64,000 nt of DNA from an uncultured Pseudomonadota bacterium (GTDB lineage Bacteria; Pseudomonadota; Gammaproteobacteria; Burkholderiales; Thiobacillaceae), in assembly GCA_903835655.1 (NCBI GenBank), contig CAILNT010000028.1:1-64000 (forward strand). The letters are read 5' to 3'. Below are positions 20,969 through 47,787 of the stretch, piece after piece; the first letter of the stretch is position 1, and the number at the start of each line of letters is the position of its first letter. The notes under the pieces are model-generated. The model ran no database searches and was not told the DNA's origin. It was given only the letters and a program-made list of their open reading frames with translations. Position numbers and translations under genes: made by a program.

Positions 20969-20979
20969 AGAGGCGCATG

Positions 20980-21052
20980 CCCTCATCCCCGGCCCTTCCC
21001 CCTCCGGGGGAAGGGGGTAGAACCCTCTCTCTTCGGGAGAGGGCAGGGTGAG
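20980..21052. repeat. Double hairpin repeat between SNF2 gene and regA
   Basis: Two adjacent palindromes, CCTTCCCCC/GGGGGAAGG and CCCTCTC/GAGAGGG, lie between two convergent genes. The CCCTCATCCCCGGCCCTT-type sequence is a common intergenic proteobacterial repeat. It may act as a bidirectional transcription stop. A related CCTCTCCCGCTCGCGGG palindrome occurs near 39200. Confidence 0.6.
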
Positions 21053-21157
21053 GCAGATCGGTGGTAAACCAAATGGTTCCGACTACTTCCTTAATACCTT
21101 TGCTCAGCCGGCGCCCGTGCGCCACCTGCCCGCATGGGCACGCTCAGCGGATTATGC

Positions 21158-21691
21158 TCAGGCCTTCACCGGCCGTTTCCCCAGCTTTCTTTGCAGGGTG
21201 CGGCGGTGCATCTTCAGGGCGCGGGCGGTGGCGGAGAGGTTGCCCTCGTTTTCCGCCAGGACTTTCTGGATGTGCTCCCATTCCAGGCGATCCACCGACA
21301 TCGGTTCCACCGACGTCATGACTTCCGCATCGCCCGACTCGCGTCCGAGCGCGGCCAGGATTTCTTCCACCCCGGCCGGCTTCGCCAGGTAGTGCACCGC
21401 GCCCAGCTTGATCGCCTCCACCGCGGTGGCGATGCTGGCATAGCCGGTGAGCAGGAGGATGCGCAGCTCCGGTTGGGCGACTTTCAGCGGCGCGATCAGA
21501 CGCAGGCCGGAATCCGCGGCCAGGCGCAGATCCAGCACCGCAGCGTCGAAGTCGGCCAGGGCCGCCAGGGCCAGGGCGGTTTCCGCGTCCCGCGCCAGAT
21601 CCACCCGATGGCCACGTCGCCGCAGCGCGCGCGCCAGCGCCTGCGCGAACACCGGGTCGTCGTCCACCAGCAGCATGCGCCAGCCGTTCAT
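21158..21691 (-). CDS. regA: RegA/PrrA/ActR-type redox response regulator
   Basis: A 177-aa two-domain regulator. Receiver residues are present: the acidic pocket DDD at 10-12, phospho-acceptor Asp54 in VLDLRL, Thr in LLTGYAS and the conserved Lys in YLAKPA. The C-terminus is a Fis-type helix-turn-helix, HIQKVLAENEGNLSATARAL followed by KMHRRTLQRKLGKR, the diagnostic RegA end. In relatives, RegA controls respiration, photosynthesis, carbon and nitrogen fixation in response to quinone redox state. The ATG at 21691 overlaps the regB stop by four bases. It is convergent with the SNF2 gene. Confidence 0.93.
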   Translation of the reverse strand: MNGWRMLLVDDDPVFAQALARALRRRGHRVDLARDAETALALAALADFDAAVLDLRLAADSGLRLIAPLKVAQPELRILLLTGYASIATAVEAIKLGAVHYLAKPAGVEEILAALGRESGDAEVMTSVEPMSVDRLEWEHIQKVLAENEGNLSATARALKMHRRTLQRKLGKRPVKA

Positions 21692-22938
21692 AGCCCCCCC
21701 GCCACGGGCAGAAACACCCGTGCCACGGCGCCGCCTTCGCCGCGATCGGCCAGTTCCAGACGGCCCCCCATATGGGTCAAGGCCGCGCGGGCGAGTTCCA
21801 GTCCGACCCCCCAGCCGCCGGGCTTGTCCCTGCCCCTTTCGCCCGCCAGGCCCGGGCCGCTGTCGATCACCTCGATGACCAGTCGGTCGCCGCCGGGATG
21901 GGCCAGGAGATGGGCGCGCACCCGGATCGCCTCGGGCGAGACGTCCGCCGCGTTGTTGAGCAGGGTCATCAGTACCGCCCTCAGGCCGGGATCGTGGGCG
22001 CGCTCGGGCAGGTCGGCCGTAACATCGAGGCGCACGCAGGCTTCCGGGCGCAGCAAGCCCCAATGCTCGATCTCGCGCGCCAGCCATTCCGCGGTCGGCA
22101 TGCAAGGCGCTTCCGCGGCAACGCGCGCGCGCGCCGCGTCTCCCAGGCGGGCGAGCACCTGGCGCATGCGGCTACTTTGCTCTGCCAGCAAGGCCAGCGG
22201 CGCATCCAGTTCATCGTCCCCCGCGTAGTCCCGCCTCAGGTCGTCCAGCGTAAGGCGCAGCGAGGCCAGTGGCGTGGCCAGGTCGTGGGCGGCCGCGGCG
22301 GCCTGGACGCCCAGCGCGAACAGGTGTTCGTCGCGCAGGCGCGACTCCCGCGCCTGCGCCAGCTGCGCGTCGCGCTGGCGTAGCGCCGCGGCCAGGCGTC
22401 CGGCGAAGGCCGCCACCAGCGTCGCGGTGAGCAGGAAATTCAGCCACATGCCGCGCAGGTGCAGATCCACCGCGGCCTCGGCCGAGACCTGAAGGACCAG
22501 AGGCCGGTAATGCCCCATCAGCAGCGTATAGAGCCCGGCCACCCAGAGCGCCATGGCCCAGGCATGGGGCGCGGGCAGCGTGACGGCGGCAAGGATCAGC
22601 GGTACCAGCAACAAAGAGATGCAGGGGTTGGCATAGCCGCCGGTGAGGTAGACCAGGGCGGCGACCAGGGCGGCGTCGGCGGCGAGGTGCAAGGCCAGTT
22701 CGAGCGTCCCGCCCGCGCGCCGTCGTGCCCAGGCCACCGCGTTGAGCAGGGCGTGAAGCAGCAGGATCAGGAGCAGGGTGGCCATTGGCAGGCGCGCGTG
22801 CAGACTGAACTGGGCCAGCAAGATGGCCAACGACTCGCCCAGGATCAAGGCCAGGCGCGTCAGCATCAGGCGCACCTGCGCCTCGCGCGGCAGATCCTCG
22901 AACCAGGCGGAGAAATGGAGACGGGGCCAGGAAAACAT
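21688..22938 (-). CDS. regB: RegB/PrrB-type redox sensor histidine kinase
   Basis: A 416-aa kinase with six membrane helices in the first 190 residues, an H-box (AAHDLATPLASLRL) and an ATPase domain with N-box LLNNAADVSPEAI, then DSGPGLA and GGWGVGLELARA. RegB proteins sense quinone redox state through GGxxNPF in the membrane domain; here it reads GGYANPC, Phe being replaced by Cys. The redox-active Cys that follows the H-box in RegB (a RCRxIL-type motif) appears as Met (RMRQVL). Thus the cytoplasmic thiol switch is probably missing while quinone sensing may remain. It is cotranscribed with regA and divergent from the electron transfer cluster across about 760 bp. Confidence 0.9.
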   Translation of the reverse strand: MFSWPRLHFSAWFEDLPREAQVRLMLTRLALILGESLAILLAQFSLHARLPMATLLLILLLHALLNAVAWARRRAGGTLELALHLAADAALVAALVYLTGGYANPCISLLLVPLILAAVTLPAPHAWAMALWVAGLYTLLMGHYRPLVLQVSAEAAVDLHLRGMWLNFLLTATLVAAFAGRLAAALRQRDAQLAQARESRLRDEHLFALGVQAAAAAHDLATPLASLRLTLDDLRRDYAGDDELDAPLALLAEQSSRMRQVLARLGDAARARVAAEAPCMPTAEWLAREIEHWGLLRPEACVRLDVTADLPERAHDPGLRAVLMTLLNNAADVSPEAIRVRAHLLAHPGGDRLVIEVIDSGPGLAGERGRDKPGGWGVGLELARAALTHMGGRLELADRGEGGAVARVFLPVAGGL

Positions 22939-22972
22939 GCGCGAATTCTAGCCGTGGGCGGGACCACCGGCC

Positions 22973-22989
22973 TGCGACAACCTGTCGCA
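22973..22989. promoter_or_regulatory. RegA-like palindrome upstream of regB
   Basis: TGCGACA and TGTCGCA are perfect 7-bp inverted repeats around ACC, ending 35 bp before the regB start. Against the published RegR/RegA consensus GNGRCRTTNNGNCGC, the inner 15 bases match 9 of 11 fixed positions, missing only the two central T residues. It may be an autoregulatory site. Confidence 0.5.
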
Positions 22990-23049
22990 TTCCTCGACCG
23001 GCGGCGCAAGGCTAAGATGTGCGCGCTTACATACGTGCAAACGTCTTCC

Positions 23050-23076
23050 GGCCCGCCCCGCGCGGGCCATTTTTTT
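23050..23076 (+). terminator. Intrinsic-type terminator with no gene upstream
   Basis: GGCCCGC / GCGGGCC form a stem around a 5-nt loop, followed by A and seven T residues. It is oriented on the plus strand although the nearest upstream gene (regB) is on the minus strand. It may end a short transcript starting near 23020, where TAAGAT is a possible -10. Confidence 0.5.
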
Positions 23077-23200
23077 GGGGTAAGTAAAATATCGTGTGGG
23101 ATTGGGGGGCGCGATACGCAAAGTTGCGGGCCGGGTGTGTGATTGGGTTTCCATGCTTGGTGGGTGGGTACCATGCCATCAAAGCCGACCCAACACGCGC

Positions 23201-23228
23201 GGTATCCCTAACCGAGTTAAGGGATACC
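23201..23228. repeat. Strong hairpin preceding repeat copy 1
   Basis: GGTATCCC...GGGATACC with an inner TAAC/GTTA pairing makes a tight stem-loop directly before the 135-bp repeat. It is absent from the second repeat copy. Confidence 0.5.
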
Positions 23229-23360
23229 CACCCCAGGAGGGCAGGCGTGTTGAAGCAGCACTGGCGAGGCCTTCCCCGTAGCGCTGGCATCCTTGCCGGC
23301 GTCTTTGAAAACAGCCGGCTGCAAGCCGGCGCTACAGAACCGCGATTATTTCTCTTTGAA
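23226..23360 (+). repeat. 135-bp dispersed repeat, copy 1
   Basis: This segment matches 47824-47958 on the opposite strand over its whole 135 bp, with six differences by my alignment. It starts ACCCACCCCAGGAGGGCAGG and ends in TTATTTCTCTTTGAA. Internally it has palindromes such as AGCCGGCT and GTAGCGC...GCGCTAC. The two copies enclose the electron transfer and PEP-CTERM block in inverted orientation. Confidence 0.9.
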
Positions 23361-23507
23361 TCAACGGGTTGCCGCGCGCACGGACGTTCCCCGCTTGCGC
23401 CCACTCGCGGGCGGGCGCCGTTCGCATCGTGCGGACCGAGGACGGTGCTCCCGTTCCTCTTCCTGTTCCTCGTTCCCGAGGTCGCCCCACCTGAGCCGTC
23501 CGCAATT

Positions 23508-23521
23508 TTGATCACGATCAA
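23508..23521. promoter_or_regulatory. Perfect FNR/Anr-type binding site
   Basis: TTGATCACGATCAA matches the TTGAT-N4-ATCAA consensus at every fixed position. It is 176 bp upstream of the first decaheme cytochrome ATG and would place the cluster under oxygen-responsive control. A second palindrome, TGATGC-AAAC-GCATCA, lies at 23569-23584 close to a plausible transcription start. Confidence 0.7.
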
Positions 23522-23697
23522 GCAGCCCGACGGAATGTCGTCCTGGAAGTTCCGCATCCAACGGTAATTGATGCAAACGCATCACGCAGCTAGGCCGTCT
23601 GTACCCCATGCTGTCGACGGGTGTCTTCTCAGGGATAGCTGGGTAGTCGCCGCGTGTACTGGTCAATTCCCGATAGAACGTAATAAGGAGACATAAA

Positions 23698-26600
23698 ATG
23701 TTGGCTTCCAGGGTTTTTTCATTAATAAGAATAGGGCTTCTGGCCCTGGCAGTCGGCGGACTCGCCGGCTGCGGAGGTAGCGGTAGCGATGGGGCCAACG
23801 GCACCAACGGTACCAATGGCACTAACGGCAGCAACGGCAGCAACGGCACCAACGGAATCAACGGCATTATCCCGGCCAGCAGCATGTCCGCCGCTCAGTG
23901 GATGGCGCTCAAGCCGAAGATCAGTGCCAGTGACATCAAGATCGACATGAACGGCGGCAAGCCGATCATCACCTTCAAAGTCAGCGACAGCGTCACCGGC
24001 CTTCCGGTCATCGGTCTGGGCGGTCAATACCAGGCCAACATGACCACCACCACGCCGACGCCCGCTAGCGCAGCACTGGTTCCCACCACCTACAACATCT
24101 CCTTCACTGTCGCCAAGTTGGTACCTGGCGTAGCTTGCACGCAGATAAGCGCATCGGGCGGAACCCCGGCTGGCTGTGGCGGCCCGAGCAAGTGGGTCAA
24201 CTATCTCGTGAGCAATCCCGGCACGGCGGCTCCCGCAGGATTCCCGGCAGCTCTGGCATACCTGGGGGTCGGCAACTATCCAAGCGCAGACTCTGCCGGA
24301 GCAATCGTGGATAACGGTGACGGTACCTATAAGTACACCTTCTATCGCAACCTCAACGATATGGCGGCCTTCGTCGCTGCGTTGACCGACGACGCTACTC
24401 ACCTGAAGGCGGATCTCGGCGACGTGAGCTACCAGCCGACCCTGACCCACCGCCTGGGTATCATCATCAGCGGCAGCCAGCCCGGCACCGGCAGCAACAC
24501 GCCTGACCACTCGACCAGCAGCGTCGCAGCCGTGCCCCTGGTCTACACCTTCAATACCGCCTACGATTTCATTCCCGCTACTGGGAAAACTGTGGTTGCC
24601 GGTACGGATACCACGCGCAATATCGTCATGAAGGACGCTTGCGGCGATTGCCACAACGGCAAGGGCATAGGCCACGCCAGCACGAATGCTCTGGCTCCCG
24701 GCATGACCATCGGTCGCAACGACCCGGTTCTGTGCGTGACCTGTCACACCGACCAGACCAAGTATGGTTTCGTCAATGGTAGCGGCACCACCAACGCCGC
24801 TGGCTATACCACCTACTACACGCAGAACACCACCGAAGGCGGCAATGCGGTGCGCGGTTCGGCGTTCGACTTCCCGCGCATGATCCACCAGACCCACATG
24901 GGTGCGGATCTGCCCGTGGGCACGCTCAACCTGAACAACCATTGCAACACCACGACTGGTGCGAACCTCGCGCAGTGCTTGAACAAGGTCGGCTACCCGC
25001 AAGAAATTACCAACTGCGCCCAGTGCCACGGTGGCACGAAATCCAGCAATGTTGCCGCACGCAAGACCACTGATGGCGACAACTGGCTGAATGTGCCCAG
25101 CCGCAAGGCCTGCGGCGCCTGCCATAACGGCATCGACTTCGGTACCGGCCTGGGCACGACCGTCGCTGGAGCTTCTACCGGCCACGCAGGTGGCGCGTAC
25201 CAGGATGACAGCGCTTGTTCCTTCTGCCACTCTGGCGACACGAATGGCTTGAAGCCGATCGCAGTCGTCCACCGCAGTGTCACGCCGCAGACGCTCAACC
25301 CGACCACACAGGCCGGTGTCAAAAACGTCGCCTACGTCGTCAGCCGCGCCACGGTGACCGCCGGCATTCCGTCGATCGACTTCAGCATCAAGATCAACGG
25401 CAGCAACGTGACTTCGCTGACCGCGCCGACTTTGGCGAATGGTGGCCTGGTGAAGGATACCTGGACCGGCAAGACCGCCGTGCACAGCTCCTATGACCCG
25501 TTCACCGGCAAGGTCGCAACCTCCGCCAACAATACCAGCAGTGCTACTTCGCTGGTCGGCGGTCCGAGCTTCTATGTCGCCTTCGCCGTGCCGCAGGATG
25601 GCATCGCCACCCCGTCCGACTTCAACGCCACCGCTTCCGCACCGCTCATCAACCTGCTGGTGGCTGCCGGAACTTCGCCGAGCGCCGGTACGATCGTGTG
25701 CGCGGCTGGCGGTGCCACCACCCTGGCGGCTTGCCCGGCGGGCGTCTACACCGCCACCCTGACCGGTGACACCGTGGGTCAGCCGCTGCCGGCCGACTGG
25801 AACGCTGCGACCGGCGCGCTGGTTAGCTCGAAGCCCAACGCGACCACCAAGCTGTACACGACCACCTACTACGGCAGTACCCTGTATGGCGGCGCGACTC
25901 AGGCGACCGAGACCAATCCTGTGTCCCACGCCGGTCTGGGCTACCTCATCAACCCGAGCCCGATCAAGCTGCCGACCACGGCGACCATGGTTACCGCTGC
26001 GATGATAGGCGGTTTCACCCAGACCAATCTGACCGACGCGGCCCAACAGGCTTACTATCCCTATACCACGGCGGTCTACAACACCGCCGCGGGACTGGGA
26101 CATCCCACCACCTCGACCTACACCACGGCGGGCACGTCTCCCAATGCCGCGGCTGGCGCGTCGGGCGGACTCGTAATCAATACTCCGACGCCGGTGTTGG
26201 TGGCAACGGGCTACACGGGTCGTCGTACCCTGGTATCGGGAGCGGCCTGCAACACATGCCATTCTCAGCTTGGCACGTCGCCTTCCTTCCATAGCGGCGC
26301 TCGCAACGACCCGACGACTTGTGCCTTCTGTCATACCCCCAACCGTAACAGCAACCCCTGGGTGATTGACTCGACGGCCTTCGTTCACGCCTTGCACGGC
26401 ACCAGCAAGCGCAGCAATGCCTTTACCTGGCAGAGCAGCATGGGTACGAATATTCTGTATCCGGGTGTGCTGATGAACTGTGTGGACTGCCACGTTTCCG
26501 GCGCGTTCGACTACTCCACCGCCGCGACCGCGACCGTACTGCGCAATCGTCTGCCGCGCACGGCTGTGACTGGTTCGTTCAGCGTGAACCAGTTCGTGAC

Positions 26601-27102
26601 GACCGGCGGGGTGGCTAACCCGGCCCCGACCACGGACGCCAACGTGGTAGTGAACCTGGTTGCCGACGCCACGATCCAGCAGGCCAGCCCGCTGTTCAAT
26701 TATGGCCAGAGCGGTGCGGGTACCTCGGTCATCGCCGGTGCTGGCGACTACAGGAACTACGGCAATGCCTTCAGCTTCACGCCCCTGGGCGCAGTGGTAC
26801 CTGGTGTCGTGAGTAGCGGTACGGGAACGGTGGCTCCGGCACACATCGCCGTTCTGGCTGGTGGCGAGATCCTCAATGCCGACAATGCCACGCTGATGAA
26901 TTCGCCGACGGCTGCGGCCTGCTTCAGCTGCCACGACTCGGATGCCGCCACCGCTCACATGCGCAGCAATGGCGGCTCCATCCTGGCGACCCGTGCGGCA
27001 GTCAAGGCCGCCAACGGCTCGCTGATCAGCAACGAAGCCTGCCTGACTTGCCACGGCAAGGGTACTGGCACCTATGACATCAATGTGGTGCACCACAACT
27101 GA
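23698..27102 (+). CDS. OmcA/MtrC family decaheme outer-membrane lipoprotein (1134 aa)
   Basis: A surface c-type cytochrome expected to pass electrons from the MtrAB conduit to minerals, electrodes or other extracellular acceptors, or to take them up. A lipoprotein signal ends in LAGC (Cys25). Residues 33-56 are eight N-G-T/S-type triplets, a flexible tether. Ten CXXCH haem sites occur: CGDCH, CVTCH, CAQCH, CGACH, CSFCH, then after a long beta-rich segment CNTCH, CAFCH, CVDCH, CFSCH and CLTCH. This 5+5 split matches MtrC-type architecture of two Greek-key and two pentahaem domains, though the product is much longer than Shewanella MtrC (about 670 aa). A strong AAGGAG ribosome site is 8 nt before the ATG. 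A terminator follows, so it can be transcribed alone. Confidence 0.93.
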   Translation: MLASRVFSLIRIGLLALAVGGLAGCGGSGSDGANGTNGTNGTNGSNGSNGTNGINGIIPASSMSAAQWMALKPKISASDIKIDMNGGKPIITFKVSDSVTGLPVIGLGGQYQANMTTTTPTPASAALVPTTYNISFTVAKLVPGVACTQISASGGTPAGCGGPSKWVNYLVSNPGTAAPAGFPAALAYLGVGNYPSADSAGAIVDNGDGTYKYTFYRNLNDMAAFVAALTDDATHLKADLGDVSYQPTLTHRLGIIISGSQPGTGSNTPDHSTSSVAAVPLVYTFNTAYDFIPATGKTVVAGTDTTRNIVMKDACGDCHNGKGIGHASTNALAPGMTIGRNDPVLCVTCHTDQTKYGFVNGSGTTNAAGYTTYYTQNTTEGGNAVRGSAFDFPRMIHQTHMGADLPVGTLNLNNHCNTTTGANLAQCLNKVGYPQEITNCAQCHGGTKSSNVAARKTTDGDNWLNVPSRKACGACHNGIDFGTGLGTTVAGASTGHAGGAYQDDSACSFCHSGDTNGLKPIAVVHRSVTPQTLNPTTQAGVKNVAYVVSRATVTAGIPSIDFSIKINGSNVTSLTAPTLANGGLVKDTWTGKTAVHSSYDPFTGKVATSANNTSSATSLVGGPSFYVAFAVPQDGIATPSDFNATASAPLINLLVAAGTSPSAGTIVCAAGGATTLAACPAGVYTATLTGDTVGQPLPADWNAATGALVSSKPNATTKLYTTTYYGSTLYGGATQATETNPVSHAGLGYLINPSPIKLPTTATMVTAAMIGGFTQTNLTDAAQQAYYPYTTAVYNTAAGLGHPTTSTYTTAGTSPNAAAGASGGLVINTPTPVLVATGYTGRRTLVSGAACNTCHSQLGTSPSFHSGARNDPTTCAFCHTPNRNSNPWVIDSTAFVHALHGTSKRSNAFTWQSSMGTNILYPGVLMNCVDCHVSGAFDYSTAATATVLRNRLPRTAVTGSFSVNQFVTTGGVANPAPTTDANVVVNLVADATIQQASPLFNYGQSGAGTSVIAGAGDYRNYGNAFSFTPLGAVVPGVVSSGTGTVAPAHIAVLAGGEILNADNATLMNSPTAAACFSCHDSDAATAHMRSNGGSILATRAAVKAANGSLISNEACLTCHGKGTGTYDINVVHHN
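23794..23865 (+). repeat. Eight 9-bp tandem codons units within the decaheme gene
   Basis: Eight nonanucleotide units encode X-Asn-Gly triplets (A, T, T, T, S, S, T, I at the variable position), residues 33-56. Nine-base units keep the frame if copies are gained or lost by slippage. Confidence 0.85.
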
Positions 27103-27121
27103 TGTTGGCTTGATCTGCGGC

Positions 27122-27143
27122 ACCGGGGTGCGAGCACCCCGGT
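27122..27143. repeat. Perfect 10-bp hairpin after the first decaheme gene
   Basis: ACCGGGGTGC-GA-GCACCCCGGT folds into a perfect stem 20 nt after the stop. No T run follows it directly; it may protect the mRNA 3' end ahead of the terminator at 27170. Confidence 0.6.
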
Positions 27144-27169
27144 AAGCCTAGCCGCTTTAGCCCACTTCG

Positions 27170-27198
27170 CCCGGATGCGGCAACGCATCCGGGTTTTT
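27170..27198 (+). terminator. Intrinsic terminator of the first decaheme gene
   Basis: CCCGGATGCG and CGCATCCGGG form a perfect 10-bp stem with a GCAA tetraloop, followed by five T residues. Confidence 0.88.
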
Positions 27199-27273
27199 CC
27201 ATGGTGCTGGCAGCCAGATAAACGCACTGGTTAGACAGCGAAACATCCACTCAGTACATTACTGGAGAATTGA

Positions 27274-27681
27274 ATGAATCGCGGTAATTTCAAACTCATG
27301 GTCATGCTCGTCAGCCTGCTGCTCGGCGCGGGCCCGTCACTGGCTAACGACCCGGTAGCCTCGCAACCCGGCAAATCGCCACCGTCGAAATACCGGCATG
27401 CCCATGCCAAGTACAAACTGGTTAACATTAACGCCGCCAGCAAGTCCGAATTGATGAAATTGCCCGGCATTCACGCCGCCGAGGCGGATCGGATCATTGC
27501 TGGCCGCCCTTTTGGCAGCAAGGCCTGGCTGGTCACAAAATTGATCATTACGGAGGCGGTGTATGACGGCCTCAAGGATCGCGTCGTCGCCAAGCAGGAT
27601 AAGCAGACCCTGGATATTCTGCTCAAGCGCAATAACACCGTTGCGGCAAAAGCCGCACCTAATTCAGCGCCCAAGAAATAG
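27274..27681 (+). CDS. Secreted ComEA-like helix-hairpin-helix protein
   Basis: A 135-aa protein with a signal peptide (about residues 1-25, ending SLAN) and one helix-hairpin-helix pair: KLVNINAASKSELMKLPGIH and AAEADRIIAGRPFGSKAWLV, the pattern of ComEA DNA-binding domains. The tail is basic and Ala/Lys-rich. ComEA proteins bind incoming DNA in the periplasm, but no competence genes are here. The gene lies between two decaheme cytochrome genes, downstream of a terminator and with its own ribosome site (TGGAGA). Its role in the cluster is unknown; it could bind extracellular DNA or simply use the fold for protein contacts. Confidence 0.8.
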   Translation: MNRGNFKLMVMLVSLLLGAGPSLANDPVASQPGKSPPSKYRHAHAKYKLVNINAASKSELMKLPGIHAAEADRIIAGRPFGSKAWLVTKLIITEAVYDGLKDRVVAKQDKQTLDILLKRNNTVAAKAAPNSAPKK

Positions 27682-27770
27682 TCGTGCCGGGCGGTCGCGA
27701 AGCCCTGAATTTATTGAGTGGCATCGGTCGGTGTGGCGGATAAAACGGATTTGTGAACCATCGCGTACCT

Positions 27771-27776
27771 TATAAT
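27771..27776 (+). promoter_or_regulatory. -10 element before the second decaheme gene
   Basis: A perfect TATAAT lies about 160 bp upstream of the cytochrome start. No good -35 is visible at 17 bp, so an activator may be needed. It implies a long 5' leader. Confidence 0.5.
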
Positions 27777-27936
27777 CCCCGGGCGATGCATTGATGTGAT
27801 GACCCGAAGGGCAACGAAGTCCGGTCTGGTGTTCCCACTCGATCCTGGGGGAGAGAGTACAATCGCGCGATCCGGACGGCTGGCCCGATGGTGTATCTGG
27901 TATGTGGATGTTGTTATGAAATCGACGGAGATGAGC

Positions 27937-30297
27937 ATGAACTTCCGGTTGGCTGGAGCGGCACTGCTGCTGACATTGGCATTGACGGGATGTGGCGGCG
28001 GGGGCAGTGGGTCAGGTGGGAACAGCGTCATTCCTGTGAGCGCCGCCCAGACAGGCGCGACCATCACCGGCGTAACGGTGGCCAGCCCGCCGGTCGTGAC
28101 CTTCGTTGTCAAAGATTCCGCTGGCAATCCGGTCACCGGCCTGAAGTTATATGATGCAGCGGATACCTCCGCCTGCAAAGGCGCCAACGTCACTTTCGCC
28201 ATCGCCAAGTTCGACGGCGACAACTGGCAGAACCTGATCTCGCGGCAGAGATATGTGGCGGACGATCTGTCCAATCCGGCTGCGCCGAAATATGCCGTCA
28301 TCGAAGGCACGACCGACCCGAAACCGACGGCCACCCTCACCAATACTGATCCGACCCATCCGGTCGTGGGCAGCCTGGAAGAAAGCAGCGGCGTCTACAC
28401 CTACCGCTTCGCCATCGATGTCACGACCCCGCTGCTGATGGCCAACGCGGTCGATCAGCGCAATGTTTCTCTCGGGCGGGTCGCCAACAATGGCAACCTG
28501 GCCGTCAAGGACGGCGCGACGCTGCACCGTGTCGCGCTCCAGTTGTGTTACGTGGACCCGTTGACCCAGCAGGCGGTAAAGGTCAACCCCTACGTGGATT
28601 TCACGCTCGACGGCGCGGGCAAGGGCGTGATCAATACGGACACTCATGGGGTGCCGTCCGCCTTGCGCAAGGTGGTGGACCGGGCCTCCTGCAACGAGTG
28701 CCATCAGAATCTGGCGCTACACGGCGGTGGCCGCATCGATCCGAATTACTGCGTGATGTGCCACAACCCGGGTAGTCGTGACTACGCGACAGGCAATCTC
28801 ATCGACCTCAAGCTGATGGTGCACAAATTCCACATGGGCCGGCGTCTGACCCAGGACTATGCGGTGCAATCGGCTGTGGCGCGCAAGAATACCGGCGGTA
28901 TGATCACCGGGATGCTGTATCCCCAGGATCAACGCAACTGCGTGAAGTGCCATGACGGCTCGGCAACGGCCGTCCATCCGACCGCGCAGGGTGACAACTG
29001 GCAAGGCAAGGCGAGCAAGAATGCCTGCTGGGCCTGCCACGACGACTACAAGACGCCGGGCTCCAAATGGCAACTGGCGCATGCCAGCTATTCTGCCTTC
29101 ATTTCGCCAAGCATCGCCAATCCGGATGCCACGCCGGATATCTACTGCCGCTCTTGCCATACTCAGGGTGGAACCTTGGCACCGCCGGTAGCCAAGTCGC
29201 ATGCGATCACGGAACTTGGTCTGAGCGCGAATTACCAGCTCAACATCCATGGCATCACCAGGAACGCCAACAACACCTTGACGGTGGAGTACTCGGTAAG
29301 CAACCCGGCCACGAGCAGCACCTACGATATCCAAAGCTCGCAGTACAGCTACATCACGGGTGCCACCACCACGAAGACCTTTGCCGGCCTGAACCTCCTG
29401 TTCGCCTGGGGCGACTACTCGAACGGCGGCCAAGCTCGTGGCCAGCCGATCTCCGTCAACGCCTTGTCCGGCACCAAGCTGGGCAGCGGCAATCACTACT
29501 CGCTGACCTCCAGCGTGCTCCCGGCCACGGGCACGGTGACCGTGGCCTTCGTGGGCAATGTCAACCCGCCCGATTCCTTGGGGGCGAGCCTGACGGTGCC
29601 GGTGGCCAATGTGACCCAGAATTACGCCATGAGCGGGATCGTGCAAGCCCGGCGGCAGGTAGTCAGCGCCGCCAAGTGCAATGCCTGCCATGGCCAGAAC
29701 GTCGGCTATACGGACATCACAACCGCCACGCCATCCTTGAGCGGGCATGGCGGCAGCACCGATCCCCAGACCTGCGCGATCTGCCACAACGGCAATCTCG
29801 ATGCGACCACCTCGAATCTGGTCGCGCATAACGCGGATTCCGGCGACTTCAAGCGCATGATCCATAAGGTGCATAAGGCGCAAGGGACGAACTATCCCGT
29901 GATGCCCTCGGCCGCGCTAACGGCCCTGACCTCGACCAGCCGACTCATGCCGGGCGCCATGGTGGGGACCTACACGGGCATCATGAATTGCACGGTCTGC
30001 CACGAAGGCACCACCTATTTGACCAGCTCCAGCGTTCTGGGCAGCAGCACCAGCGTCAATGGCGTCGATGCTCTGGATCCCACCCAGAACGGGGTCATCA
30101 GTCCCAAGGCCGCCGCCTGCTCGTCCTGCCACACGGACGCAGCAGGTACGGCCATGCGGGACCACATGATCCAGGGCGGAGCCGTATTCGGCACGGTCAC
30201 CCAGGCGAACGTCGGCACGGTGTTCGAGCAATGCGACGGCTGCCACCTGCCTGGAGCGGTGATGGCGGTGGACAAGGCGCACGGATTGACGAATTAA
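27937..30297 (+). CDS. mtrC: MtrC-like decaheme outer-membrane lipoprotein (786 aa)
   Basis: The second surface decaheme cytochrome, probably the terminal partner of the MtrA-MtrB conduit encoded downstream. The ATG at 27937 is chosen because GGAG stands 6 nt before it; 27916 and 27931 are alternatives. The signal ends in the lipobox LTGC (Cys19), followed by a Gly-rich linker. Ten CXXCH sites split 5+5: CNECH, CVMCH, CVKCH, CWACH, CRSCH; then CNACH, CAICH, CTVCH, CSSCH, CDGCH. The haem groups are separated by a beta-rich domain (about residues 425-575), as in MtrC. It heads a run of five co-directional genes (mtrC-epsD-mtrA-mtrB-cytochrome) with gaps of about 65-80 nt. Confidence 0.93.
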   Translation: MNFRLAGAALLLTLALTGCGGGGSGSGGNSVIPVSAAQTGATITGVTVASPPVVTFVVKDSAGNPVTGLKLYDAADTSACKGANVTFAIAKFDGDNWQNLISRQRYVADDLSNPAAPKYAVIEGTTDPKPTATLTNTDPTHPVVGSLEESSGVYTYRFAIDVTTPLLMANAVDQRNVSLGRVANNGNLAVKDGATLHRVALQLCYVDPLTQQAVKVNPYVDFTLDGAGKGVINTDTHGVPSALRKVVDRASCNECHQNLALHGGGRIDPNYCVMCHNPGSRDYATGNLIDLKLMVHKFHMGRRLTQDYAVQSAVARKNTGGMITGMLYPQDQRNCVKCHDGSATAVHPTAQGDNWQGKASKNACWACHDDYKTPGSKWQLAHASYSAFISPSIANPDATPDIYCRSCHTQGGTLAPPVAKSHAITELGLSANYQLNIHGITRNANNTLTVEYSVSNPATSSTYDIQSSQYSYITGATTTKTFAGLNLLFAWGDYSNGGQARGQPISVNALSGTKLGSGNHYSLTSSVLPATGTVTVAFVGNVNPPDSLGASLTVPVANVTQNYAMSGIVQARRQVVSAAKCNACHGQNVGYTDITTATPSLSGHGGSTDPQTCAICHNGNLDATTSNLVAHNADSGDFKRMIHKVHKAQGTNYPVMPSAALTALTSTSRLMPGAMVGTYTGIMNCTVCHEGTTYLTSSSVLGSSTSVNGVDALDPTQNGVISPKAAACSSCHTDAAGTAMRDHMIQGGAVFGTVTQANVGTVFEQCDGCHLPGAVMAVDKAHGLTN

Positions 30298-30374
30298 GGG
30301 ACTCGCAAGGGACTCGCGGCGCGGACGCCGCGTGCATGATGTATGCCGTTTTGTTGATGAGGATTGGGGAAGTT

Positions 30375-31220
30375 ATGAAATTGACCAGCATCTACGTCGC
30401 CGTTGCCATGAGCCTTGCCTTGGGCGCGTGCCACGGCGGGAAGTCGGAGATCGCGTCTGGCGAAGCCGTTAAGGTGAATGGCCAGGCGATCAGCGTGGCC
30501 GAGTTGAACGAAAAATCGGGTAATGCGCACACCGATGCCAAGACGTCCGTTCCAGGGCCGATATTGAAGATGACGATCGAAACCGAGTTGCTACGCCAGG
30601 CGGCGGTCCAGGAAAAGCTGGACGTGGACGCCGACGTGCACGCGAGAATCGCCAATTCGACCCGGATGATCCTGGCCACGGCCTATATGCAAAAGCAATT
30701 GGCCGCGATCGCCAAGCCGGGCGACGCCGATGTTGCTGCTTATTTCAACCAGAATCCGGAACGTTTTGCGCAGCGCCAGCAATACCAGTTCCAGGAGTTC
30801 AGCATCCAGCCGCCAGCAGGCAAGGCCTCTGAGGTTCAAGCGCTGGCGGCCAAGGTGAAGAGCCCGGATGAACTGGAGAAATGGCTGGCAGCGAACAATA
30901 TTCCGCACAGCAGCACGCCCGCGACGACGACCGGGGACCAGTTACCCGACGCGGTAATGCAGAAGCTCAAGGGCGTGAAGGCTGGGGGGAGTGTCGTCCT
31001 GGGCGACGGCAAACAGTTGAATGTGGTGTTCGTTCTCTCCGAACAGCCGCAGCCGATGTTGTTGGCGCAGGCTTCGGCCGCGATCACGAATCAATTGTGG
31101 GACAAGCGCAAACGCGAGACCCTGGAAAAGATGATGAAGCAGCTCCACGACAAGGCAAAGATCGAGTATGTGGCGCCCTTCACGGAAAACGGTTTTTCCG
31201 CCCCCGCAACCCCGCATTGA
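30375..31220 (+). CDS. EpsD-like peptidyl-prolyl isomerase lipoprotein
   Basis: A 281-aa periplasmic foldase-like protein. A lipoprotein signal ends LGAC (Cys19), followed by VKVNGQAISVAELNEK, a SurA/EpsD-type N-terminal motif, helical chaperone segments and a C-terminal parvulin-like region (QYQFQEFSIQ through GVKAGGSVVLGDG). The parvulin part is short and diverged, so chaperone activity is more likely than catalysis. EpsD homologues normally belong to exopolysaccharide/PEP-CTERM clusters; here it lies between mtrC and mtrA and may help fold the MtrB barrel or the cytochromes. The ATG at 30375 follows a GGGGA site and starts a clean signal peptide. Confidence 0.82.
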   Translation: MKLTSIYVAVAMSLALGACHGGKSEIASGEAVKVNGQAISVAELNEKSGNAHTDAKTSVPGPILKMTIETELLRQAAVQEKLDVDADVHARIANSTRMILATAYMQKQLAAIAKPGDADVAAYFNQNPERFAQRQQYQFQEFSIQPPAGKASEVQALAAKVKSPDELEKWLAANNIPHSSTPATTTGDQLPDAVMQKLKGVKAGGSVVLGDGKQLNVVFVLSEQPQPMLLAQASAAITNQLWDKRKRETLEKMMKQLHDKAKIEYVAPFTENGFSAPATPH

Positions 31221-31299
31221 CCGGCCGCGGCTCTTTGCCGGCAGGGTTTCACCGTGTACTCTGATGCCGTCTAGGCGAACCGAATTGGGACTTAAGCGC

Positions 31300-32334
31300 A
31301 TGTTTAAAAAACTTGTGAAATCAGGGGTGATCGGTGTCGCCCTGTTGTTCATGGCAACCCTGGCTCCTTCGGCGGCAGCGGAGGACGAGGTCAAGGCTGC
31401 GGATGAGGTCAAGGCGGTCGTGGAGATCGACTTGAAGAACCCACCGCTGCCCAAGACGCTGGAGGAAAAAGCGACCCGGATCGAGCTGCTCTCGAAGCAG
31501 AAGTTCAAGGACGCCCAGACCTGCGTGGGCTGTCACGACGAACAATACGAGTACCCCGTGTTCGCGCTGTTCAAGACCAAGCATGCCGTGGTGGCGGACC
31601 CGCGTAGCCCGATGGCCAACCAGCAGTGCGAGAGTTGCCACGGGCCGGGAACCATGCACGTCAAGGCGAAGAAGCAGGGCAAACGCTCCGGCACGATCAT
31701 CAACTTCGGCAAGAAATCCTGGACCCCAGTCAAGCAGCAGAACGATATGTGTTTGGCCTGCCACCAGACCCATGAGCGCATCGAATGGCGCGGCAGCAAG
31801 CACGATTTCAATGGGCTGGCCTGCACTTCCTGCCACAAGATTCACGTGGCTCGCGACCCCATCCTGGACCGTGAGCAGCAAGCCCGCGTCTGCGCCAACT
31901 GCCACGTCGACAAGCAGGCCAAGTTCTTCCAGCTGTCCCACCACCCGGTGCGGGAAGGGCAGATGGCCTGTAGCGAATGCCATAACGTCCACGGGGAAGA
32001 TGGCAGCGGGCTGATGGTGAAGGCCAACACGCGCGCGAAGTGCGTCTCCTGTCATGCCGAGAAGCGCGGCCCCTTCCTTTGGGAGCATGCGCCCGCTGCC
32101 GAGGATTGCACCCTTTGCCACGATCCCCACGGCTCCAACCAGCCGGCCTTGCTGAAGAAGCGCGCGCCGCAGTTGTGCCAGGAGTGCCATGACCCCGCGG
32201 GCCACCCCGGCGGCAGTTACGGCGGCGCCAGTCTTGCTGCGGGCAGCTTTTATCTCCAGGCCAAGGGCTGCACCAACTGCCACTCGGCGGTTCACGGCTC
32301 GAACCACCCGGCCGGCATGACGCTGTTGCGATGA
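31300..32334 (+). CDS. mtrA: Periplasmic decaheme cytochrome c, MtrA/DmsE family
   Basis: MtrA threads through the MtrB barrel and carries electrons between periplasm and cell surface. The ATG at 31300 begins a Sec signal (MFKKLVKSGVIGVALLFMA, cleavage near APSAAA) and gives 344 aa, close to Shewanella MtrA (333 aa). Ten CXXCH sites follow: CVGCH, CESCH, CLACH, CTSCH, CANCH, CSECH, CVSCH, CTLCH, CQECH and CTNCH. Family stretches such as ACSECHNVHGEDG and CHDPHGSNQPALL are evident. An acidic EVKAADEVKAVVEIDLK insert occupies the mature N-terminus. It is followed 67 nt later by mtrB. Confidence 0.95.
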   Translation: MFKKLVKSGVIGVALLFMATLAPSAAAEDEVKAADEVKAVVEIDLKNPPLPKTLEEKATRIELLSKQKFKDAQTCVGCHDEQYEYPVFALFKTKHAVVADPRSPMANQQCESCHGPGTMHVKAKKQGKRSGTIINFGKKSWTPVKQQNDMCLACHQTHERIEWRGSKHDFNGLACTSCHKIHVARDPILDREQQARVCANCHVDKQAKFFQLSHHPVREGQMACSECHNVHGEDGSGLMVKANTRAKCVSCHAEKRGPFLWEHAPAAEDCTLCHDPHGSNQPALLKKRAPQLCQECHDPAGHPGGSYGGASLAAGSFYLQAKGCTNCHSAVHGSNHPAGMTLLR

Positions 32335-32401
32335 GCGCGGCGCAGCCCAGATGATCGAAACGATGAACCGCCATTCCCGAAGCGTGTCGAGGAACAAGCC
32401 C

Positions 32402-34528
32402 ATGTCTGATCACAAACACACCCTGCTATACACGCTGATTCTGGCCGCGCTCATGCTGCCGATCACGGCCGAGGCGGCGAAGAAATCCGCCGATGGAGAC
32501 GGTCCCGCCGCCTGCGACGACTGCCCCGACTACAGCGGTTGGTCCGGCTGGGTGGAAGGTGGCCTGGGCGTGCAGTCGGATGACGACTACCACTTCGGCC
32601 GCTATACCGGCCGCGAGAGCCGGGGCGGCACGGTCAATGCCGCGGGCGATGTGCGCTATCGCGCCAAGGACGGCCACTATGCCGACATCAAGGCGGTGGA
32701 CCTCGGGCTCACGTCGCGCGACTTGCAAGTGGATGGCGGCGTGCAGGGTAAATACGGCGCTGCCTTCGAATACGATCAAATTCCCAATTACCGCATCCAG
32801 GATGCCTACACCCCCTTCCAGGGCGTCGGCACACTGCCGGCGGGCTGGATGGCCGGTGGCAACACCGGCGCCATGACCGGCCTGGCGGCCGCGCTGACGC
32901 AAACCCCGCTCAAGACCCAGCGTGATCGCACCGGGGTCAAGTTCGACTACATCCCGGTCACGGACTGGGCCGTCAACGGGTATTTCCGCCATGAGAAGAA
33001 GGACGGCACCCGAGACGTGGGCGCCGGCTTCGGTTTCGGCTCGATTTCCGTCCTCGCCGTCCCCATCGATTACCAGACCGACGACTTCGGCGTGACCGTG
33101 GGCTACAAGGGCCGCAAGCTGCAAGGGCAACTCGCTTATACGGGTTCGCTGTTCAAGAACGGCAATGCCGCGATCACCTTCGCCAACCCCTATTCGACGC
33201 CGGTGGCCACGGGCGCAATCGCCGAGGCGCCGGACAATCAGTCGCATCAGCTGAGCGGCCTGCTGGGCTACCAGCTGTCGGAGAGCACCCGCATCGGTGC
33301 GAACCTGGCCGTCGGCCGCATGACCCAGAACCAGGCTTTCCTGTCTCCAGCCTATGGCTCGCCCGCGACGGGTAGCCTCGATGGCCGCGTGGACACGACC
33401 CAGGCCAAGGTCGACATCAGTTCCCGCCCCGCCCTGCGCTGGCAACTGAATGCCAGTTACAGCTACAGCAATCGCGACGACAAGACCGCCGTCCATTCCT
33501 ACCAGGACGTGATCACGGACGCCTATCAAAGCTACTATCCGGGGACTTCCACCCCGATCACGCGCGGCAACCGCCCCTACAGTTTCGAGCAGCGATTGCT
33601 GCGCACCAGCGCGGCCTATGTTCTGCCCCAGGGGGCGAACCTTTCCGCGGGCTTCGACGATAACCGGATGAATCGCAGCTACCAGCCGGTTCAGGAGACC
33701 GATGATCGGACGCTGTGGACCAAGCTCAAGCTGCATCCGACCGAGTCGATCGAGGCCACGCTGAAGTATTCCTATTCGACACGTAGCGCCTCCGCCTACG
33801 CCACATCCTCGGCAGCCGCGGCGTTCCAGAACCCGTTGTTCCCGGAGTCCGGCGTGGGCAACGCCAATCCCCTGATGACCGCCTTCGAGTACGCGAACCG
33901 CCGCCGCGACAAGGTGGGCGTCGAGGTTTCCGCCAGCCCGCTGCCCAATCTCTCGCTGGATCTCAGCGTCGACTACTATCGGGACGATTATCCCGATACG
34001 GTGCTGGGCCTGAACAATGCCAAAGGGACCAGCGTTACGCCAAGCGCCACCTACGTCTTCAGCGAACGCCTGTCGACTTCCCTCTACTACGCTTACGAGA
34101 AGCTCGATTCCGGCCAGGCCAGCAGTTACTGGATGACCGCACCGGCGACGAGCACACTCTGGGCGGAGTCCGACAGCAACCTGACCCAGACGGTGGGCCT
34201 GAGCCTCACCTGGAAGGCGATCCCCAAGAAGCTCGATCTGAGCGCGGATGTGGCGTATTCCGACTTTACCGGCAAGATTCACTATGTCGGCACGACCGAC
34301 CTGCCGGATCTGGGCTCCAGAATGTCGTCCATCGGCATCCATGGAACCTACAAGCTGAAGGATCAGCTTTCCTTGCGCGCCGGCTATCGCTACGAGAAAT
34401 ACACGCAGTCCGACTGGGCCAAGAGTGGCGCGGCTTCCACCCTGCCGCAACTGCTCTCGCTGGGCACGGCCCCGCAGAACGGCGAAACCAGCCTGGTGAC
34501 GGTATCCTTGCGTTACGACTTCAAATAA
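32402..34528 (+). CDS. mtrB: MtrB/PioB family outer-membrane beta-barrel
   Basis: A 708-aa porin-like barrel that sheathes MtrA in the outer membrane. The ATG at 32402 follows a GAGGAA site and begins a signal peptide (MSDHKHTLLYTLILAALMLP). The mature N-terminus carries CDDC (residues 38-41), the CXXC pair required for MtrB stability in Shewanella. The rest is alternating amphipathic beta strands rich in Tyr/Asp/Gly (for example LNASYSYSNRDDKTAVHSYQ) and ends in SLRYDFK with the terminal Lys after an aromatic residue. MtrB proteins have about 26 strands; the length is of the usual range for MtrB/PioB (about 700-800 aa). Confidence 0.94.
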   Translation: MSDHKHTLLYTLILAALMLPITAEAAKKSADGDGPAACDDCPDYSGWSGWVEGGLGVQSDDDYHFGRYTGRESRGGTVNAAGDVRYRAKDGHYADIKAVDLGLTSRDLQVDGGVQGKYGAAFEYDQIPNYRIQDAYTPFQGVGTLPAGWMAGGNTGAMTGLAAALTQTPLKTQRDRTGVKFDYIPVTDWAVNGYFRHEKKDGTRDVGAGFGFGSISVLAVPIDYQTDDFGVTVGYKGRKLQGQLAYTGSLFKNGNAAITFANPYSTPVATGAIAEAPDNQSHQLSGLLGYQLSESTRIGANLAVGRMTQNQAFLSPAYGSPATGSLDGRVDTTQAKVDISSRPALRWQLNASYSYSNRDDKTAVHSYQDVITDAYQSYYPGTSTPITRGNRPYSFEQRLLRTSAAYVLPQGANLSAGFDDNRMNRSYQPVQETDDRTLWTKLKLHPTESIEATLKYSYSTRSASAYATSSAAAAFQNPLFPESGVGNANPLMTAFEYANRRRDKVGVEVSASPLPNLSLDLSVDYYRDDYPDTVLGLNNAKGTSVTPSATYVFSERLSTSLYYAYEKLDSGQASSYWMTAPATSTLWAESDSNLTQTVGLSLTWKAIPKKLDLSADVAYSDFTGKIHYVGTTDLPDLGSRMSSIGIHGTYKLKDQLSLRAGYRYEKYTQSDWAKSGAASTLPQLLSLGTAPQNGETSLVTVSLRYDFK

Positions 34529-34606
34529 GCCGGGTTTGCGGGAGGGGCTCCCGGCCGCAAATGCGAGAGGCGCGGATTCTTACTCATTCGGACGGAGGTG
34601 GTTATC

Positions 34607-35221
34607 ATGTTGAACCGGACTTTGGCGTTGATCGCGTTGGTTCTTTCGCCACTCGCGCTCGCGGGGGAATTGACTCAGAACTCCGAACTGGTCCAGACCT
34701 GTGGCGCATGCCATGGCGTCGATGGGAATACGCTCCTGCCCATCGCGCCCAATCTGGCCGGTCAGGTTCCCGGATATCTGTTGTACGAATTGAATGCGTA
34801 CAAATCCCATAATCGCATGGACGATTTCATGGGCGCTTTTGTGGATCCGCTCACGGACGAGGATATTTCCAGGTTGGTGGTGTATTACACCAAGCAGAAA
34901 TTCGTTCCCTTCATCCCCGCGGAGCAGGTCGATCCTGTTTTGGTGGCCCATGGCGCCTTGTTATACAAGAGGGAGATCAAGAAGGTGGGCCTCTCCTGTG
35001 CGGATTGCCATGGCGAATCCGCGGAAGGCGTGGAGAACCGGGTCTTGTTGAAGGACTTTCCGCGCCTGGCCGGGCAGCCCTACGATTACCTGTTCTCCAA
35101 CCTGAAGCAATATTCTCAACGCATGAAGCATTTCAGCATGCTGGGAATGAAAGTCGCCGCCGCGTCCTTGTCCGATGACGAGATCAAGGCCCTGGCCACC
35201 TATCTGTCCAATCTGAAGTAG
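34607..35221 (+). CDS. Diheme cytochrome c (c4-like)
   Basis: A 204-aa periplasmic protein with a signal peptide (MLNRTLALIALVLSPLALAG) and two class I domains, each with one CXXCH: CGACH near residue 35 and CADCH near 129, with axial Met in MDDFMGAF and MKHFSMLGM. Cytochrome c4 proteins shuttle electrons between membrane complexes and soluble acceptors. Being the last gene of the mtr run, it may link the inner-membrane chain to MtrA. The ATG is placed by GGAGG 8 nt before it. Confidence 0.87.
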   Translation: MLNRTLALIALVLSPLALAGELTQNSELVQTCGACHGVDGNTLLPIAPNLAGQVPGYLLYELNAYKSHNRMDDFMGAFVDPLTDEDISRLVVYYTKQKFVPFIPAEQVDPVLVAHGALLYKREIKKVGLSCADCHGESAEGVENRVLLKDFPRLAGQPYDYLFSNLKQYSQRMKHFSMLGMKVAAASLSDDEIKALATYLSNLK

Positions 35222-35436
35222 CAGGGCAGGGCGGGAAAACGGTTTTATCCTGCCTTCCGCCGGATGTTGGGCATTCGGCGGCGCCGGCGTGGCCGGCTCT
35301 TCCGCCCTACGCGGGCTTCGGCGGCAAAGCGGGGTGAGTGCGATGTGTGGGGCCGCGGAAACATTCGGGGATTACCGATCATGTGCAACAAGGTCTAGAG
35401 TGATGCCCATCCTGTCATTCAAACCCGGAGCTCAGA

Positions 35437-43452: not shown

Positions 43453-43607
43453 GTTGACTCCCTGTGTCGCGACTCGAGGCTCAGCATGGCCCCGACACAC
43501 CCGCGAGGCGAGCATCTTACCGCGACATGGGGCGTCAGGTCCGAATCGCGACCACAGCGCTGGAGTAGGGGATGCACGCCACTCGGCGGCTACCCCCGAA
43601 CGGCGAA

Positions 43608-47413: not shown

Positions 47414-47787
47414 CTGGCGCCGGAGACACTGATGTCCGAGAGCATGGCTACCAGGATCGTGGCATCCGTCTGCGTGACTTCCACGGGCAGCTTCACCTGA
47501 ACACGCGGACAACACCGAGCCTGCCTGACCAGGACCGATTCAGGATAGAGGAAGTGGATGTGCGGGTAGGGTGCGGCGTGGAAGGAAATGGGGTGGCAAT
47601 TGATGGCGAAGGCATGCGTGTTGACCAGGCCGCGCAGGACGAACATATCGGTGGGCTTGATCCACCGGTCCTCCAATCCTCCTGGCAGCGTCGTGATCAG
47701 GCTTTTGCCCGGCAGCGCTCCGATGAACTGGACCTGGTGCTGTGCCTTGGTGTTGGCCGGTTGCAAGCTGATATGGAAACCCGGCAT
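47380..47787 (-). pseudogene. Truncated PilZ-domain protein
   Basis: A YcgR-like protein whose N-terminal domain (MPGFHISLQPANTKAQHQVQ onward) precedes a PilZ domain retaining both c-di-GMP motifs: R-x3-R in QARCCPR and D-x-S-x2-G in DISVSGAR. Immediately after SGAR the sequence switches to phytochrome GAF-coding DNA in another frame (junction near 47410-47418), so the rest of the PilZ barrel is lost. Codons before the ATG at 47787 (FANLNL in frame) also look like YcgR-N sequence, so the 5' end may have been cut where the 135-bp repeat now sits. Not expected to be functional. Confidence 0.72.

Follow-up and report, generated by a model that had tools for sequence, protein, structure and literature searches.

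The window analyzed here is a 64-kb stretch from the genome of an uncultured bacterium of the Thiobacillaceae (source genome G000, completeness 99.98%). At positions 23698–35221 it carries, on the plus strand, seven genes related to electron transfer across the outer membrane: dec1, HhH (helix–hairpin–helix), dec2, epsD, mtrA, mtrB, and the gene of a diheme cytochrome. Judged from the encoded proteins, the cluster amounts to a full MtrCAB conduit of the outer membrane, together with one more decaheme cytochrome, which is HhH-associated and predicted to lie at the cell surface. An initial annotation, made from the letters of the window alone, had proposed an Mtr-type cluster with two surface decahemes, and left the direction of electron flow open.

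The first gene, dec1 (23698–27102), encodes a large decaheme lipoprotein of 1134 amino acids (aa) of the OmcA/MtrC family (10 CXXCH motifs; TIGR03507, 349.7 bits, cut-off 209.3), which the decaheme tree described below places in an HhH-associated clade. The region upstream of it (23468–23697) is likely the promoter region of the cluster and is conserved in the locus of the closest relative, L041 (blastn, 82.9% over 23468–23846). Downstream from dec1 there is a terminator-like hairpin at 27169–27194 (11 pairs, 8 of them G-C, with a T-rich tail), followed at 27274–27681 by the gene of a secreted HhH protein of 135 aa (PF12836, 35.4 bits, cut-off 27), which the initial annotation had missed between the two decahemes. 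Then come dec2 (27916–30297), a core MtrC-type decaheme lipoprotein (10 CXXCH; TIGR03507, 367.2 bits, cut-off 209.3); epsD (30375–31220), a peptidyl-prolyl isomerase lipoprotein of the EpsD family (TIGR02925, 135.6 bits, cut-off 108.9); mtrA (31300–32334), a periplasmic or embedded decaheme cytochrome (10 CXXCH; DmsE-type TIGR03508, 282.8 bits, cut-off 192.2); mtrB (32402–34528), an outer-membrane barrel with an N-terminal CDDC (PF11854, 482.5 bits; TIGR03509, 434 bits, cut-off 240); and, at 34607–35221, a c4-like periplasmic diheme cytochrome (2 CXXCH; two PF00034 stretches), the probable partner of MtrA. The likely starts at 27916, 30375, 31300, 32402, and 34607 were chosen by eye against the sister locus.

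The heme-binding motifs had been counted as 10+10+10+2, with a CXXC in the MtrB barrel, and these counts are confirmed: the frames at 23698–27102, 27796–30297, 31168–32334, and 34598–35221 contain 10, 10, 10, and 2 CXXCH, and 1000 residue shuffles of each decaheme gave at most 1 (dec1), 1 (dec2), and 2 (MtrA). MtrB has exactly two cysteines, both within the single CDDC close to the N terminus. Read by eye, dec1, dec2, and EpsD have lipobox-like ends (GLAGC, ALTGC, and ALGAC), and MtrA, MtrB, the HhH protein, and the diheme protein have Sec-type leaders. The two predicted OmcA/MtrC-family surface decahemes and EpsD of the initial annotation are likewise upheld by the family models. In a search of the PDB (E 0.001), MtrB has a single match, 6r2q_B (E 7e-81), and the best match of MtrA is 6r2q_A (E 4e-78), with three further ones that are far weaker; dec2 matches three sequences, MtrF, OmcA, and UndA, and dec1 matches MtrF alone.

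The trees agree with the family models. In the MtrA tree (32 rows, without duplicate loci and one batch of fetched stretches), the window and the Shewanella chain are together in an Mtr clade of 12 rows (100/98), inside which six rows (100/99) come from MtrC-bearing loci; the label for MtrC in that tree missed L052, whose locus has a dec1-type gene. In the MtrB tree (35 rows, without duplicates, L064, L069, L070, L075, short fragments, and the Shewanella MtrB chain), the window again falls in a 12-row Mtr clade (100/100). The N-terminal CXXC is present in 12/12 rows of that clade and in 1/23 outside it (L155), a case set aside since the motif is in a part of the frame that overlaps mtrA. The Shewanella MtrB chain, aligned to MtrB of the window, has the CXXC at the same position. 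The phylogenetic check that the initial annotation had asked for has placed both proteins with the Mtr type, outside the MtoA/PioA-like half of both trees, a half that is so named by inference, the trees being without a named MtoA or PioA reference. An MtrC-type gene alone is no marker of the Mtr clade, because in L052, L155, L156, and L159 such a gene accompanies a barrel of the Mto/Pio-like half (MtrB tree). By their MtrA, L064 and L065 also fall in the Mtr clade, on contigs that end too near mtrA to show an mtrC gene. The source genome also has a second conduit, an MtrA/MtrB pair without MtrC on contig C4 (L038:8458–11909, minus strand), which falls in the Mto/Pio-like half of both trees. 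This second conduit adjoins a two-component pair that resembles CpxR/CpxA, with scores under the model cut-offs.

L041, the closest relative of the cluster, belongs to a sister species (genome G008, a metagenome-assembled genome, 84% complete) and has the same gene order. The conservation between the two is uneven. MtrA (322/344), MtrB (623/708), and the diheme cytochrome (175/204) are overall 86–94% identical, and dec1 is identical at 44 of its initial 50 residues. By segment, identity is 23–38% in the rest of dec1, 19–64% in HhH, 45–60% in dec2, and 42–53% in EpsD. Sliding nucleotide identity, blastn, and protein identity together delimit a divergent block at about 23830–31150 (edges approximate) with most of dec1, HhH, dec2, and most of epsD, i.e., the surface module. 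At the left edge, nucleotide identity is 0.83–0.89 in 150-base windows starting at 23525–23675 and drops to 0.48 at 23825; at the right edge, it is 0.57 at 31000 and back to 0.86 at 31150. Between both ends, blastn finds just scattered pieces of 65–76%. In the decaheme tree, dec1 of the window pairs with dec1 of G234, a genome of another family (99/95), and a sister relationship of the dec1 genes of the window and L041 is rejected (P = 0.0012, approximately unbiased test). A surface block of ~7 kb was thus probably exchanged in one of the two sister species, as judged from these comparisons; recombination would have replaced it downstream of a promoter and signal peptide that stayed constant. 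Because epsD is mostly inside the divergent block, there are hints that the clients of EpsD are the surface lipoproteins and not the barrel, and its function would most likely be that of a foldase for the lipoprotein cytochromes.

Some observations weigh against such an exchange. The sister relationship of the two dec2 genes is not rejected (P = 0.299), so part of the block may instead have diverged fast; the right-hand match of blastn stretches to 30559, within epsD; and L041 could be a chimeric contig, coming from an incomplete metagenome-assembled genome. Surface proteins often evolve fast, and the whole block might have diversified rapidly in place, e.g., under pressure from phages or for mineral specificity, which is compatible with any direction of electron flow. 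The dec2 result speaks for this explanation, but it accounts poorly for the abrupt transitions at both ends and for the grouping of dec1 with that of G234 instead of L041, and we consider it doubtful.

The size of dec1, described earlier as far larger than that of Shewanella MtrC, is real at 1134 aa but partly a trait of its kind: seven other HhH-associated decahemes span 756–982 aa, and the segment of dec1 that separates hemes 5 and 6 is further lengthened by an insertion. Of 24 decahemes placed in one tree, eight form a clade (98/99) that includes 7/8 of those followed by an HhH gene; only one of the 16 outside it is so followed, a row with a long branch. Among the loci fetched around mtr genes, the HhH gene is directly 3′ of a decaheme gene in all eight that carry it. 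The HhH protein of the window scores 27 bits with the comE model TIGR01259 (cut-off 152), below the ComEA threshold. The G-x-G hairpin is a mark of DNA-binding HhH proteins; the first hairpin is GIH in the window, and because G-x-G is retained in just 2/8 aligned HhH proteins, a structural role beside dec1 appears more likely than one in DNA uptake. AlphaFold models were too poor to be used (mean predicted local distance difference test score 28.5 for dec1 and 54.6 for HhH, four rows each), and the dec1 result is to be counted with the points against our reading of the cluster.

As to the terminator attributed to dec1, the hairpin does occur in the window, but the same scan at L041 finds no terminator-like hairpin between dec1 and HhH, and separate induction of dec1 is unproven. 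The pattern scan gives three promoter-like sites against 3.6 expected, and 18 terminator-like ones against 11.4, and the hairpin at 27169–27194 is the longest.

For the direction of electron flow, the gene content of the source genome was read with genome-wide profile searches. The NapC/NirT/CymA family (PF03264) has no match in G000 (the Escherichia coli control is positive), which extends to the whole genome the absence of a CymA-type gene noted at first in the cluster; CymA is an associated partner, outside the conduit proper. In a per-genome search, NapC is over the cut-off in 5/12 genomes and in 0/4 Mtr-clade carriers of the source family (G000 and the genomes of L058, L059, and L060). 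Mtr-clade carriers outside the family are divided, with no match over the cut-off in the genomes of L063 and L074. MenD is over the cut-off in 0/10 genomes, and the weaker matches found in all ten are, we infer, other thiamine-diphosphate enzymes. The MqnA family has no match in G000. RuBisCO-family matches (PF00016) are found in 8/10 genomes, G000 included. In G000, a cytochrome c1 adjoins an open reading frame that resembles cytochrome b by eye, and three heme-copper oxidases are over the cut-off, two of them CcoN (cbb3); no NCBIfam model matched the third at E 1e-20. This gene content reads as the gear of an oxygen-respiring autotroph. With no NapC match and no MenD over the cut-off or MqnA, but with RuBisCO, cytochrome c1, and two cbb3 oxidases, the net direction is somewhat in favor of electron uptake, and the "surface reductase" of the initial annotation is not borne out. 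Cytochrome c4-type dihemes commonly serve oxidases, and for that reason inward flow via the diheme protein would be the simplest wiring.

The explanation toward which we lean, with some reserve, is an inward MtrCAB conduit with a replaced surface block. By homology, MtrA is sheathed within MtrB, with dec2 (MtrC) presumably capping MtrA/MtrB on the outside, and dec1 would be a second surface cytochrome that passes electrons to or from dec2, or to or from minerals without an intermediate. On the inner side, the c4-like diheme protein may ferry electrons to or from MtrA. Electrons from Fe(II), Mn(II), or a mineral would pass by dec1/dec2, MtrA, and the diheme protein to a cbb3 oxidase, and part of them would be driven uphill via bc1 for CO2 fixation. 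The full combination, in which an autotroph without a NapC-family dehydrogenase or menaquinone uses a complete MtrCAB inward, its diheme protein feeding the high-potential chain, and the outer face (two decahemes, HhH, and EpsD) is a cassette swapped by recombination while the promoter and signal peptide on one side and MtrAB on the other stay constant, is offered only tentatively.

Several points go against uptake. The rival explanation is electron export, by an MtrCAB that serves Fe(III) or Mn(IV) respiration facultatively and receives its electrons from a quinol dehydrogenase of a family other than NapC. NapC matches under the cut-off occur in the genomes of L058 (two) and L059 (one), both assemblies being 84% complete, and matches over it occur in those of L061 and L065, Mtr-clade carriers outside the source family. 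MtrA is in the same clade as the Shewanella chain, and the CXXC of MtrB, present in the window, is said to have been tied to metal-reducing Gammaproteobacteria by Wee in 2014, a study cited in PMC12175506. By eye, no oxidoreductase of the CbcL, MtoC, or MtrH type was noticed beside either conduit in the open reading frames viewed, and no genome-wide search for them was made. The dehydrogenase would be either of the CbcL/MtoC type (for these quinone oxidoreductases, see PMC6295460) or an NrfD-type module on contig C79 (L039:9892–13165), with a DsrO-like ferredoxin, a DsrP/NrfD-like membrane protein, and a tetraheme cytochrome, which could replace CymA and act as a quinol dehydrogenase. However, only five of 121 genomes (the source genome and 120 relatives) have the tetraheme cytochrome at ≥68% identity, namely G000, G008, G001, G023, and G034, and MtrB only in the first two of these; the Mtr carriers G005, G013, and G041 are without it at high identity (softly so in G005 and G013, which are 77% and 84% complete). 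As a general rule, an obligatory CymA substitute of this kind is rejected by these absences, and an obligatory link is contradicted by the high-identity copies in G001, G023, and G034, where MtrB has no match. With no NapC match, no MenD over the cut-off, and no MqnA family besides, export is unlikely. A conduit working both ways, which would discharge excess electrons at low oxygen and import electrons whenever a donor is available, under the control of the RegB/RegA-like pair that is divergent from the cluster, would fit with that pair and with the two conduits of G000. Against it, the pair occurs with snf2 in L161 and L162 without mtr genes at that place, so its proximity may be incidental; this third possibility is quite unlikely. 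In the stretch L039:8046–13165, a membrane-like monoheme protein without a family match precedes the ferredoxin gene of the NrfD-type module.

The RegA/RegB-like redox two-component pair, a possible regulator, is at 21158–22938 on the minus strand (RegB-like, 155 bits, cut-off 350; RegA-like, 174 bits, cut-off 250), with neither score reaching its cut-off. Relatives have the pair together with snf2 as well, and because L161 and L162 have it without mtr genes at that place, the cluster was probably inserted next to an older RegBA-like pair. The right-hand neighbor sbf is not seen beside regB in the fetched stretches of relatives, and these offer no clean empty site. The flanks of the cluster (22939–23697 against 35222–35436) share a match of nine bases at most, and its guanine-plus-cytosine content (0.615, against 0.648 in the remaining window) is not decisive. 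A plasmid origin was rejected: tblastn of MtrA against a plasmid collection gives only two records, at 39.3% and 30.6% identity. A second RegB/RegA-like pair is found on contig C71 of the source genome (L167:2508–4267), about 70% and 77% identical to that of the window, and at L162:4224–5633 and L163:3355–4681 paired diheme c4-like cytochromes are upstream of RegBA, with no mtr cluster there. An intergenic repeat of the window (20972–21093) has copies at L041:11367–11447 and 17753–17871. EpsD-family proteins usually belong to XrtA/PEP-CTERM loci, and a PrsT of that system is encoded in the window at 40615–43515 on the minus strand (TIGR02917, 663 bits). On the same strand, at 46244–47515, there is a bacteriophytochrome-like protein (272 bits, below the model cut-off), adjoining a hybrid histidine kinase.

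Conduits of this sort are not frequent among the relatives. The MtrB family has matches in 22/121 genomes, 19 of them over the cut-off, and at least five genomes (G000, G005, G008, G013, and G041) belong to the Mtr clade by their loci, G005 through the contig it shares with L062, only part of the MtrB matches having been placed. Among 399 genomes of the order, the MtrC domain matches in 122 at E 0.001 and in 66 over the 30-bit cut-off, and reaches at least 60 bits in just seven, G000 among them.

Compared with Shewanella MtrCAB (6r2q) and OmcA, the window likewise has MtrA, a CXXC-bearing MtrB, MtrC, and an accessory surface decaheme. It differs by a larger dec1, the added HhH and EpsD genes, a terminal diheme cytochrome, and a genome with no NapC/CymA match. 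MtoAB and PioAB share a homologous barrel and decaheme, and the MtrC-less C4 conduit of the source genome is in that half of the trees; the MtrBs there are without CXXC (L155 being doubtful), and the proteins of the window fall outside it. The diheme cytochrome beside mtrCAB recalls the periplasmic diheme shuttle PdsA, but its score with the PdsA model NF049874 is 48.7 bits, far under the cut-off of 330. Metagenome-assembled Gallionellaceae with MtrC, as presented in the accessible part of PMC10734462, share with the window the presence of MtrC, there in a family of autotrophic iron oxidizers and with the direction left open; MtoA and MtrA are not clearly separated there, whereas the small set analyzed here separates them.

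In the open-licence literature, so far as its accessible text goes, we found no report of the G000 cluster or of a block exchange, but the layout itself is already in print. According to the main text of Baker et al. 2022 (PMC8805035), the order mtrC-HhH-mtrC-mtrAB occurs in betaproteobacterial Groups 3 and 4, e.g., in Aquincola sp. S2, and the HhH gene is noted in Aquincola and Niveibacterium. The window similarly has two mtrC flanking HhH, with mtrAB (the likeness to Group 3 being by gene order alone); it has EpsD between dec2 and mtrA, and the word "isomerase" has no match in that main text. What is added here is the genome-wide lack of a NapC match and of a recognized MenD or MqnA, the second conduit, and the evidence for module exchange. 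Whether an MtrCAB with a real MtrC takes part in lithotrophic uptake is a question left open in the consulted parts of PMC10734462 and PMC8805035, and it becomes testable in a genome that has RuBisCO, bc1, and cbb3 and lacks a NapC match as well as a recognized MenD or MqnA. If the exchange is real, a species could change its mineral partner while keeping the conduit, and block-wise exchange of the surface module would help to explain the discordant affinities of MtrC and MtrAB described, in its main text, by PMC8805035.

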